Assembly (NCBI GenBank): GCA_017475785.1
Contig: JAFVEX010000005.1
Location: 1 to 10,165 of the forward strand
Length of the DNA stretch: 10,165 bases
DNA from: Eubacterium sp.
GTDB lineage: Bacteria > Bacillota_A > Clostridia > Lachnospirales > Lachnospiraceae
Direction of reading: 5' to 3'
Shown here piece after piece: positions 5,164-8,201 of the stretch (positions are counted from its first letter, which is position 1; the number at the start of each line of letters is the position of its first letter). Position numbers and translations under genes: made by a program. The notes beneath the pieces are model-generated. The model did no database searches, had not been told where the DNA came from, and worked only from the letters and a program-made list of their open reading frames with translations.

Positions 5164-6831
5164 TTACAGGCCATTCTGGATAATGCTCCAGACAGAAGCA
5201 GTCTCAAACCCGATCCGCCACGCGGCGACGCCTGCCAGCTGATACTCCCTGACAAGATTCATCTTTGCGGTGAGTGACTGCTCATCCTCCATCCAGATGC
5301 TGTAACGCGCCTCGCTGTCGGAGGAAGTCCCAAAGTTCTGCCCAAGCGACTCGTCAAACGAAAGCGTGATTTCATGCTCCTGCACAAAGCTGCCCGCCTG
5401 CTCCATACTGAGCGCCTCGCTCTGCGGCACATCTGTGCCAAACGGAACCGTCCATCCTCTGGTATAGAATGGAATTCCGTTAACAACCTGCTCTGCCGGC
5501 ACCTCTGCGAGCGTTCCTTCAATACCATCCCTGACGAACGGCAGAGAGGCGACCGAACCCGCTTCGTCCGAGGCAGACGTGTGCTCATCGTAGCTCATCA
5601 CGATAATATAATCTGCCCAGTTCGCCTGCTCGGCACGCTTATAATAGCCGGTGTAGAGCGGCACCATATCATCGACAGAGAGGTAAAGATCCCGCTCATG
5701 CGCCGCCTGGCTCAGTTCTCTGATGAACTGGAGATACTGCGGCGCGGTGTCTTCCCGGATCGTCTCGAAATCAAGATTAATCCCGTCAAATCCCGTCTTT
5801 TTCGCTTCCTTGATCACCTGGTCGATAATGTGCGCGCGCATTTCCTGCGTCTCAAACAGCGCTCCGACGTCAACGTCCTTCCCCTTGATGTCTCCGAAAT
5901 GTGCCCAGACCTGAAGCCCTGCGTTATGCGCACGCTTTACATATTTTTTGTTCGCAAAGGAGATGACCTTGCCGTCCTTGTTCGTGATGTCGAACCAGGT
6001 CGGAGAGATGACGTTCAGCCCTTCCGCGTCCTGAATCAGACCGGACAGCATATCGTTTCCTTCGGCAGAATCAACATACTGCCAGGCCATCACGATCTTT
6101 TCCGGAAACTGCTTATGCGTAAACTGGAAAGATTCCTTCTCCTCGTGCGGAAGCCCCCGCTCCTCGTTGAACTCCACGGCGCCGGTCTTGATGTAGCCGA
6201 TAAATCCGTCCTCGGTCGCGACGCCCGTCCAGTTGTCCAGATGCTCCGTGACAACGACCGTGCTGCCCGACTTGAGCGTTGTCAGCACATCGCTTTTCGG
6301 GCCTCCGCGATACCGCACCGGCGTGTTTTCCACAACCTCCGCCGTCTCCAGTCCGTCCCAGGAAGTCCTGATAACGATCCGCCTGTCATACTCGCTGACA
6401 TCTGCCGCTGAGTTTTCGCTGATGCACGCCGCGGACAGATAGGGAAGCCCCTCCTCAAGGACCACTGCCCCGGTTCCGTCATCCGGCGTCCAGGTGCGCG
6501 TCTCCTCCGGCAGCGTCAGGTAAAGCGTCTGGCTGGGCTCCTCCCAGTAAAATCCGCTGTTCAGCACGTCCCAGACCGTCTGATAATCAACGTAGACCGC
6601 TCCGTTTATCACTTTTCCTTTTGCCTCAAGAATCTGGTCATCTACGACAATTGCCGCCTCATCATCGGACTCCAGCCCGAAATAAGACGCCGTCTCCATT
6701 TTTCTGTCCGTCGGCGAATACTTCTTAAAAAAGAAAGCAGTGATAAACAGGATCCAGATCACTGCCAGGATCGAAATGATTACGGGAATCGGTGATTTTT
6801 TCTTTTTTCTTGTCTGTCTGCGGCTGCTCAT
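5164..6831 (-). CDS. Membrane-anchored GH18 glycosidase with SH3-like domain
   Basis: Predicted 555-residue cell-surface glycosidase. Order: basic N-terminus (SSRRQTRKKKKS), one hydrophobic segment at about 15-36 acting as uncleaved anchor, a region at about 60-150 resembling the copper-amine-oxidase N-terminal-like domain common in clostridial surface proteins, an SH3-like domain at about 160-220 (VRYRGGPKSDVLTTLKSG, WTGVATEDGFIGYI), then a GH18 barrel to the C-terminus. The catalytic strand reads FDGINLDFE with the proton-donor Glu at about 356; Asn in the fourth place is usual in the YaaH/SleL-like peptidoglycan glucosidase branch rather than true chitinases. VMSYDEH further on fits the family. 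The substrate is thus more likely peptidoglycan or cortex than chitin, by inference. Start: ATG at 6831 has AAGGGAG five bases upstream; an ATG at 6864 lacks an SD and lies upstream of the predicted transcription start. No sporulation-specific promoter was recognised. Confidence 0.88.
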   Translation of the reverse strand: MSSRRQTRKKKKSPIPVIISILAVIWILFITAFFFKKYSPTDRKMETASYFGLESDDEAAIVVDDQILEAKGKVINGAVYVDYQTVWDVLNSGFYWEEPSQTLYLTLPEETRTWTPDDGTGAVVLEEGLPYLSAACISENSAADVSEYDRRIVIRTSWDGLETAEVVENTPVRYRGGPKSDVLTTLKSGSTVVVTEHLDNWTGVATEDGFIGYIKTGAVEFNEERGLPHEEKESFQFTHKQFPEKIVMAWQYVDSAEGNDMLSGLIQDAEGLNVISPTWFDITNKDGKVISFANKKYVKRAHNAGLQVWAHFGDIKGKDVDVGALFETQEMRAHIIDQVIKEAKKTGFDGINLDFETIREDTAPQYLQFIRELSQAAHERDLYLSVDDMVPLYTGYYKRAEQANWADYIIVMSYDEHTSASDEAGSVASLPFVRDGIEGTLAEVPAEQVVNGIPFYTRGWTVPFGTDVPQSEALSMEQAGSFVQEHEITLSFDESLGQNFGTSSDSEARYSIWMEDEQSLTAKMNLVREYQLAGVAAWRIGFETASVWSIIQNGL

Positions 6832-6867
6832 ACGTACTCCCTTATCCTTGAATGCTCTCTGCATTTA

Positions 6868-6896
6868 ATATTAGCATGTCAACAGGGAGATATCAA
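6868..6896 (-). promoter_or_regulatory. Predicted promoter of the GH18 gene
   Basis: On the minus strand TTGATA (6896-6891) is followed after 17 bases by TAATAT (6873-6868), a reasonable vegetative sigma-A-like promoter. Predicted transcription start is about 6861, leaving a 30-nt leader to the ATG at 6831. It may drive the whole minus-strand series down to dCMP deaminase, as no clear terminator is seen between those genes. Confidence 0.5.
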
Positions 6897-6950
6897 ATAA
6901 ATTGACCCGGGAACATTTGAATTTTTTGTGTTTGTCAGAATTGTCTGCCA

Positions 6951-7013
6951 CACAAAAGCCATCCGGTTCAGACTGGCTGCCGGGGAACCTCGCAGTGTCA
7001 TAAACCAGATGGC
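6951..7013 (-). terminator. Hairpin with U tract ending the candidate RNA
   Basis: On the minus strand GCCATCTGGTT (7013-7003) pairs with AACCGGATGGC (6968-6958), 11 bp with one G-U wobble, then TTTT (6957-6954). The 34-base interior can form a second small stem (CTGC/GCAG, GAC/GTC). The U tract is short, so termination may be partial. No U tract follows on the plus strand. Confidence 0.55.
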
Positions 7014-7236
7014 CCGATTCCATTGTGTTCCTGTTGTTTACAGGTTCATGTAAAAAATCCCGTACGACTCCTTTCTGTCTGAAATTTCCATAGTTATCCG
7101 CAGACTGCTCAGTGCAGCTGCGCGAAACGGCCTTGCCAGGTTTCTGAAATCAAAACATAAAATGCCGCAAAGCGGTTACGACGCAAAAAAACGATGCTGG
7201 AAAATACTGCTGAAACGCAGGACTTGTTTATAGATG

Positions 7237-7275
7237 AAAAAAACGCGATTTGCTAATCCGGACTGATTATCTGCG
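7237..7275 (-). terminator. Attenuator-like hairpin with T7 overlapping a three-codon ORF
   Basis: CGC-A-GAT (7275-7269) can pair with ATCGCG (7249-7244), with an inner AATC/GATT stem (7268-7265 with 7258-7255) and a hexaloop; seven T follow (7243-7237). The stem is interrupted by bulges, so it is only moderately stable. Its 5' arm is the coding sequence and stop codon of the Met-Arg-Arg ORF, so a ribosome on that ORF would block it. That arrangement suggests translation-controlled attenuation, which is inference. Confidence 0.4.
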
Positions 7276-7278
7276 CAT
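7267..7278 (-). CDS. Putative three-codon leader ORF (Met-Arg-Arg)
   Basis: ATGCGCAGATAA is preceded, eight bases after its GGAGG core, by GGGAGGTGAT (7292-7283), which contains nine bases (GGAGGTGAT) perfectly complementary to the 3' end of 16S rRNA. This is the strongest Shine-Dalgarno in the window, in front of its shortest ORF, about 40 nt after the predicted transcription start. It is unlikely to encode a functional protein; if used, it would position or stall ribosomes. The two codons are Arg CGC and Arg AGA. An in-frame upstream GTG-ATG inside the SD is too close to be used. Confidence 0.35.
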   Translation of the reverse strand: MRR

Positions 7279-7323
7279 GGGCATCACCTCCCTGGCAGAA
7301 ACCTGACGGCCGTCCGTGGCTCT

Positions 7324-7351
7324 ATTATACCATTATGTATACAAATTGCAA
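7324..7351 (-). promoter_or_regulatory. Strong promoter-like sequence for the intergenic RNA
   Basis: Minus-strand TTGCAA (7351-7346), 16-base spacer, then a consensus TATAAT (7329-7324); predicted start about 7317. The neighbourhood is AT-rich and contains TATAC repeats. It reads away from mecA and is about 450 bp from the GH18 gene, which has its own promoter. Confidence 0.6.
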
Positions 7352-7399
7352 GTGCAAAAAAGTTCTTTGTACTGCATTTGTGATTTTTTGTTTTTTCCA

Positions 7400-7428
7400 T
7401 TTACTTTTCTGCGAAAATGTGATATAGA
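7400..7428 (+). promoter_or_regulatory. Possible mecA promoter
   Basis: TTTACT (7400-7405), 17-base spacer, TATAGA (7423-7428). The predicted start (about 7435) would fall on the Shine-Dalgarno AAAAGGAG (7434-7441), giving an almost leaderless message, so the real promoter may instead lie further upstream. Weak support. Confidence 0.3.
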
Positions 7429-7451
7429 TACCCAAAAGGAGAAGTGATTTC

Positions 7452-8201
7452 ATGAAGATCGAAAAAATCAATGACAATCAGATTCGCTGCACGCTGACCA
7501 GCAGCGATCTTGAGAGCCGCAAAATCCGGCTGAGCGAGCTGGCGTACGGCTCTGATAAAGCGAAGCTGCTGTTTCGTGACATGATGCAGCAGGCGCGCAG
7601 CCATTTCGGATTTGAATCGGGCAATTCTCCTCTGATGATCGAGGCGATTCCGATCTCGCCTGACAGCATTGTCCTGATCATTACGAAAGTGGAGGATCCG
7701 GAGGAACTGGATACGCGGTTCTCCCGCTTTTCCTCGCCGGATCCCGAGCCCGGCAGCGATTTGACGCGCCATCTGTCCGGAGCGGACGAGGTTCTTGACC
7801 TGTTTAAGAAGATCACGGACGCAAAAGAGGCGGCACGCCAGGCCGAAGCTGAAGCTTCCAGAGAGCAACAGGCGGAACAGCCGGCACAGGAAATCACCGC
7901 GGCTGTTAACCTGATTCAGGCATACCATTTTGATTCGCTTGATTCGGCCGCGCGGGCGGCTCACAGCCTGCGGCAGGCTTATGACGGTCTGAACACGCTG
8001 GTCAAGGATCCCGCGTCTGCGTCTTACACCCTGCTGCTCCACGCGGAGGGAACGGAGCCGGAAGTATTCAATAAGGTCTGCAACATTCTCACCGAGTACG
8101 GCGACAGCATCGTGATGTCCCCGGGCGCTGAGGCACACCTGCTGGAGCACGGCGACATTCTTCTTTCCGGAACGGCGCTGCAGACACTTGCGACGTTCTG
8201 A
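7452..8201 (+). CDS. mecA: Adaptor protein MecA
   Basis: MecA is the substrate adaptor that delivers proteins to the ClpC-ClpP protease and promotes ClpC hexamer assembly; in Bacillus its best-known target is ComK. The 249-residue protein shows the family N-terminal domain (MKIEKINDNQIRCTLT at 1-16, LSELAYG, FRDMMQQA, SPLMIEAIP, VLIITKVEDPEELDTRFSRF to about 93), an acidic and Ala/Glu/Gln-rich linker (about 94-150), and the C-terminal ClpC-binding domain (about 153-249, with FDSLDSAARAA and a repeated beta-alpha pattern ending SGTALQTLATF). Start: ATG with AAAAGGAG at about nine bases. It is a single gene between the intergenic RNA element and the minus-strand crh cluster; no clpC or mcsB is in the window. 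Confidence 0.95.
   Translation: MKIEKINDNQIRCTLTSSDLESRKIRLSELAYGSDKAKLLFRDMMQQARSHFGFESGNSPLMIEAIPISPDSIVLIITKVEDPEELDTRFSRFSSPDPEPGSDLTRHLSGADEVLDLFKKITDAKEAARQAEAEASREQQAEQPAQEITAAVNLIQAYHFDSLDSAARAAHSLRQAYDGLNTLVKDPASASYTLLLHAEGTEPEVFNKVCNILTEYGDSIVMSPGAEAHLLEHGDILLSGTALQTLATF

Follow-up and report, generated by a model that had tools for sequence, protein, structure and literature searches.

A predicted structured RNA between mecA and a GH18 gene of Eubacterium sp. and its probable relation to a small-ORF leader of Lachnospiraceae

The gap between two divergent genes of a Eubacterium sp., mecA and a GH18 protein gene (both named by Pfam), is occupied by a minus-strand stretch which, on balance, appears to be a stand-alone structured RNA of about 365 nt, descended from a leader present at the mecA-GH18 locus of many Lachnospiraceae. 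The whole stretch of DNA that was analysed, called here the window, is 10,165 nt long and its features are collected in Table 1. In relatives this RNA is, judging from sequence comparison, a leader or a dual-function RNA and not a purely non-coding one, because an ORF family of about 70 aa, initially detected at this locus, is found in 152 of 299 genomes of the family. An earlier note, made from the letters of the window alone, had seen no convincing protein in this RNA, which suits the window, where none was recognised, but not many of the relatives. As the window is without the ORF, the UAUAUCAC box and the second helix P2, it should be seen as a derived relative and not as a canonical member.

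Table 1. Positions of predicted features in the window
Feature	Position	Strand	Basis
mecA, divergent, upstream	7452..8201	+	Pfam MecA, 228 bits
Promoter: -35 TTGCAA (7351-7346), 16-nt spacer, -10 TATAAT (7329-7324)	7324..7351	-	Scan; conserved in L001-L003
Predicted transcript, about 365 nt	6954..7317	-	Start inferred from -10, end from T tail
P1 5' strand GUCAGGUUUCUG	7296..7307	-	Helix test, p 0.005
G-box GGGAGGUGAU, Shine-Dalgarno-like	7283..7292	-	G-box stretch inside alignments to L007, L008
Three-codon ORF ATG CGC AGA TAA, 3' of G-box	7267..7278	-	Sequence
P1 3' strand CAGAAACCUGGC	7135..7146	-	Helix test and pairing probabilities
P1 outer extension GGCCGUU, pairs with GACGGCC (7314-7308)	7126..7132	-	Folds and helix test
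Local hairpin GCGCAGCUGC...GCAGUCUGCG	7099..7123	-	Folds
Second Shine-Dalgarno-like box AGAAAGGAG, common to L001-L003	7068..7076	-	Alignments
Frame AUU UUU UAC AUG AAC CUG UAA, at the site where L004 and L005 open an ORF of about 75 aa	7038..7058	-	Sequence; putative
Terminator hairpin, 11-bp lower stem, C-rich apical loop CUGCGAGGUUCCCCGGCAG	6958..7014	-	Fold against shuffles
Separate promoter-like site of GH18, TTGATA-17-TAATAT, 9/12 bases	6868..6896	-	Promoter scan
GH18 protein gene, downstream	5164..6864	-	Pfam Glyco_hydro_18, 95 bits; ORF as listed

The promoter which the earlier note had read on the minus strand is present; it matches the consensus at 10 of 12 bases, has TG ahead of the -10 element, and recurs in the relatives L001-L003 including the spacer core GTATACATAATG (by alignment; blastn pieces with E of 2e-4 to 0.03). 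Since three promoter-like sites were found within 6000-8000 against 1.5 in shuffles, the match is weak by itself. The 11-bp hairpin followed by TTTT was likewise found, with the arms GGCCAUCUGGUU...AACCGGAUGGCUUUU spanning 7014-6954 of the minus strand, TTTT included; for 6950-7020 the folding energy is -33.7 kcal/mol, compared with -20.9 for shuffled sequences (z -4.1, 0/200 as good), and the hairpin is followed by a short, interrupted U tract (UUUUGUG). A simple terminator scan, whose rule admits loops of 3-8 only, did not report this hairpin. The fold of 6930-7317 as a whole has a z of -3.2, with 0/100 shuffles as stable. The GH18 gene, whose true start may be an ATG further inside the listed ORF, does have a promoter-like site of its own, and blastn finds weakly matching pieces of this region in L001-L003 (E 0.008-0.03). 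The proposal of a separate unit of about 370 nt, with its own predicted promoter and terminator apart from the site of GH18, can be retained.

The ORF lists of the window contain no protein of the ~70-aa family, and the longest minus-strand ORF that begins in the RNA region (7023-6871, 50 aa) crosses the terminator and found no homologue when searched, in agreement with the view that no convincing protein is encoded. The impression that peptides of this stretch turn up elsewhere as hypothetical proteins was right in so far as relatives have an ORF at the locus, but not for the longest peptide of the window itself. No known RNA class had been recognised, and none was found in the mecA-GH18 region with Rfam 15 (4227 families) at E up to 1; over the whole window the same search gave three matches, all within 690-829.

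The 5' end of the window RNA pairs across about 150 nt in P1, a 12-bp helix (p = 0.005 against 200 shuffles, with regions set by hand after the same helix was already visible in an earlier fold), of which a core of 10 pairs has a probability of 0.96-1.0. The U-box, as the UAUAUCAC box is called here, was not found in the window, where the best score has p 0.69 and the aligned site -7.9 bits; the score has p 0.18-0.26 in L001-L005, 0.047 in L006, 0.73 in L007 and 0.95 in L008. For P2, by which the pseudoknot is formed in some relatives, the window likewise gave no signal (A x C, p 0.33). Behind the G-box a start-X-X-stop arrangement is present in the window and in L004, L005, L007 and L008, with spacing equal within one base and with ATG, TTG, TTG, ATA and TTG, respectively, as starts.

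The GH18 relatives L001-L009 come from a single scan. The local alignment of the window RNA scores 80-92 with L001, L002 and L003 against a shuffled maximum of 52 (0/300), and 62 against 60 with L007 (0/300); for L008 and L004 p is 0.017 and 0.06, respectively. The alignments indicate that it is through L001-L003 and L007 that the window RNA is linked to the leader family. The terminator apical loop, CUGC(A/G)AGGUUCC(C/U)CG, is near-unchanged in L001-L003 and the window, and the window stem differs. Constraint on the RNA in the sister genomes is probable and supported by computation: the RNA stretch with its promoter has an identity of 0.79 and 0.80 between L001 and L002, respectively, and L003, against 44-58% at the fourfold sites of GH18 and MecA in the same pairs. 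The gap between mecA and the promoter is 66-67% identical in these pairs and that between the terminator and GH18 71-81%; the latter is about as conserved as the RNA and the constraint is therefore not limited to it. Conservation at nucleotide level, as earlier suggested, thus holds for L001-L003 but is of short range, as the window and L001-L003 are no more than 53-56% identical globally and blastn of the window RNA, run without a positive control, found no match in 397 family genomes. The L003 RNA with its promoter matched by blastn in 4 of 61 relatives, namely G001-G003 and, with a 43-base piece, one more. Deeper conservation appears to lie in position, boxes and pairing rather than in nucleotide sequence. 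By the P1 test L004 has p 0.085, L005 p 0.105 and L006 p 0.04, and all three encode the small protein at the same place; the leaders of L001-L003 and L007 are shorter and gave no P1 of this kind in the helix test, the 5' hairpins of L001-L003 fold no better than shuffles, and in G003 the ORF profile has no match.

In the mecA-GH18 gap of many Lachnospiraceae a G-box (AAAGGAGG), P1, a UAUAUCAC-loop hairpin and an unannotated ORF of about 70 aa are found. The 15-row profile by which this ORF was detected matches twice in one genome and otherwise once, and has no match in 147 of the 299 family genomes; a 47-row profile matched 2 of 291 class genomes, both already in the family draws. From the better-scoring matches 90 loci were taken (30 from the 299-genome search and 60 more), and within the stretch examined GH18 is present in 88 of them and mecA in 60. 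None of 47 members of the small-ORF family matches Pfam at E <= 0.01, and a fold search with a model of the small protein gave no significant match. By eye, the small ORFs of L004 (1567-1791) and L005 have no usual start codon nearby, and for those of L046, L052 and L072 no start was found; AUU or AUA after a Shine-Dalgarno box may serve as the start of such ORFs. Four loci (L061, L102, L112 and L129) have the UCAC-loop hairpin and the small ORF, with no mecA in the examined stretch. L061 and L024 are one and the same place; there the hairpin lies behind a long open frame and can thus accompany the ORF without a mecA leader.

Within 260 nt upstream of the ORF TATATCAC was counted in 40/90 loci (shuffles 1.3) and a broader UCAC pattern in 67/90 (shuffles 6.8). 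The UCAC string often lies in a hairpin loop whose stems vary between loci, the stem beating shuffled flanks (p <= 0.05) in 25 of the 72 loci with the string, hence it is not distinctive alone in most loci. To test for P1, the best uninterrupted helix joining the 60 nt upstream of the G-box to a 93-nt stretch upstream of the U-box was taken, the G-box and the UCAC string being the only anchors of these regions; 36 of 60 mecA loci qualified and 24 were dropped. With this rule 22/36 loci beat 100 shuffles at p <= 0.05, against 4/36 and 2/36 in two controls. For P2, which joins the same 5' region to the sequence after the U-box, 9/27 loci reached p <= 0.05 and 5/27 in a third control, which includes hairpin arms. 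The strands follow in the order P1a, P2a, P1b, P2b, which makes the structure a pseudoknot. Across 14 loci 94.9% of the cells of its pairs are paired, and in 13 of 21 pairs both sides have changed. Of five measures, four have an observed value that is attained by 0/500 shuffles, and for the one on further pair types 10/500 attain it; no slide comes close. These 14 loci were picked by eye for both helices from 16 inspected, with L067 (register unclear) and L074 (no P1 strand found) excluded, a choice that favours the structure, so that the fixed-rule P1 test in 36 loci is the fairer one. Own-versus-swapped pairing gave no signal, either for the G-box with the U-box loop (p 0.86) or for the G-box with the C-rich box (p 0.41). 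CCCCTC is present in 21/90 loci in the first 200 nt downstream of the ORF, against 1.3 in shuffles. In the 260 nt behind the ORF, before GH18 (L040-L129), TAATGACG was noticed in 29/90 loci against 0.5 in shuffles and TGTCGAA in 20/90 against 1.8. We take TGTCGAA to resemble a Spo0A box, and control of GH18 by sporulation is possible.

The 147 genomes without a profile-detected ORF (20 named directly, the remainder inferred by subtracting the matched ones) were sampled by searching 40 of them for mecA, from which 30 loci were taken; GH18 is nearby in 12. The UCAC pattern was found in 5 of these 12 and, as a measure of chance, in 3 of the 18 others; by eye, L163 and L147 have UCAC variants. Parts of the leader are kept without such an ORF in L023, L030, L034, L137, L138 and L163. 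The P1 test gives p < 0.01 in L030 and L163, 0.037 in L031 (here with an ORF of 46 aa), 0.08 and 0.05 in L034 and 0.055 in L138, and is not significant in L137, L149 and L023; by rule L144 and L147 have no G-box. In some of these copies a diverged ORF may have been overlooked by the profile.

As to the mode of action, it can be proposed that in relatives the leader would control the access of ribosomes to the ORF of about 70 aa behind it. P1 would close the 5' domain beside the Shine-Dalgarno-like G-box, and a ribosome on the G-box or on the three-codon ORF would overlap the 3' part of P1a; because P1 adjoins the G-box, the ribosome there and P1 should be mutually exclusive. Whichever of them wins would, in the ancestral leader, set the exposure of the second box and of the downstream start. 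Taken alone, this ribosome/P1 switch is a doubtful proposition. Since the ORF is absent in the lineage of the window, the RNA itself would have to be what is kept there. The product under selection is most likely the window RNA or its C-rich loop, acting most likely outside its own message via the purine-rich boxes or the C-rich terminator loop, and the action may consist in pairing with other messages or in protein binding.

The closest rival, itself rather unlikely, is a dual-function trans-acting small RNA of the RNAIII or SR1 type, the C-rich loops of which pair with the Shine-Dalgarno sequences of other messages while a small protein is also encoded in relatives. It would account for a C-rich loop near-identical in L001-L003 despite the different stem of the window, for the excess of CCCCTC behind the ORF, and for leader parts that survive where no ORF was detected; however, the C-rich box could equally pair with its own G-box, a pairing itself without covariation, and the window encodes no recognised small protein. 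Should the locus instead be a decaying remnant, in which the small ORF was lost and the leader is still transcribed with no function, the missing ORF, U-box and P2, the empty blastn search and the low identity to L001-L003 would be expected. This is less probable still, as the RNA of L001-L003 diverges less than fourfold sites, promoter and terminator loop are retained in the window and in L001-L003, and the P1 of the window is intact.

The fixed order of the locus, together with the presence of GH18 at nearly all small-ORF loci, would also agree with a 5'-UTR or attenuator of the GH18 gene, regulated by terminator read-through. Against this reading, which we hold to be improbable, GH18 has a separate promoter-like site, a strong hairpin precedes it, and in relatives the 260 nt behind the ORF carry the two motifs TAATGACG and TGTCGAA. 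It is barely credible that a small protein, started from a non-AUG codon, is hidden in the window as well: L004 and L005 do seem to open their ORF at AUU after a matching box with no ATG near, but the AUU frame ends after six codons in the window and after five in L001-L003, and the longest ORF of the window is without homologue. The reading as a stand-alone RNA derived from the leader is preferred over these.

Leaders of ribosomal protein operons of the L20 type are 5' leaders with a long-distance pseudoknot near the Shine-Dalgarno sequence, and by this description the leader of the relatives is alike; it differs in that the ORF family has no Pfam or significant fold match and the window has no P2. 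RNAIII/hld and SR1/SR1P are dual-function, terminated RNAs with a C-rich loop and a small protein. By that description the terminated RNA and the C-rich loop are shared and relatives encode a small protein, whereas no recognised protein is encoded by the window copy. The families of Rfam 15 are similarly structured bacterial RNAs from intergenic regions, but none of them matches here at E up to 1, and 20 loci of relatives are likewise without a match. With a limit of E 10, six matches came from 14 loci of relatives, the best of them being Clostridiales-1 (RF01699) in L026 (1385-1493, between the small ORF and GH18 and close to the latter; 32 bits, cut-off 48); the remaining ones, including a 17.7-bit sroH, are at chance level or eukaryotic. 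Literature searches found no description of an RNA at the mecA-GH18 locus. A survey of structured-RNA candidates from the human microbiome, presumably by Fremin and Bhatt, has also to be mentioned. According to its main text, in which a word search finds neither mecA nor 'glycos', the candidates are intergenic and filtered against Rfam (PMC8040213); possibly the mecA-GH18 RNA is listed unnamed in the supplementary tables. As the RNA matches no Rfam 15 family and the small protein no Pfam family, the locus is apparently undescribed.

A wider proposal, conceivable though somewhat improbable, is that of a new class of structured RNA of Lachnospiraceae: a large, partly pseudoknotted leader with Shine-Dalgarno-like and UAUAUCAC boxes, serving as a translation-controlled switch for an unnamed small protein and repeatedly freed to stand alone, the window included. 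If this is true, an RNA locus has been overlooked in about half or more of the sampled genomes of a large gut family, due to a sequence that drifts while pairing is kept and to a protein that is short, sometimes without a standard start nearby, and without Pfam match. The loss of the ORF with the RNA kept would then be a natural experiment in the passage from leader to independent RNA.

Two further features of the window were noticed. The C-terminal part of the minus-strand ORF 869-1747, for which Pfam gave no match, consists of 105-bp tandem repeats with 93% matches and is rich in Ala, Thr, Gly and Asp. Behind the first gene of the window, at 714-805, lies a long, near-perfect inverted repeat, both strands of which match a microRNA model of Rfam with a score far under the cut-off; most likely it is a bidirectional terminator.
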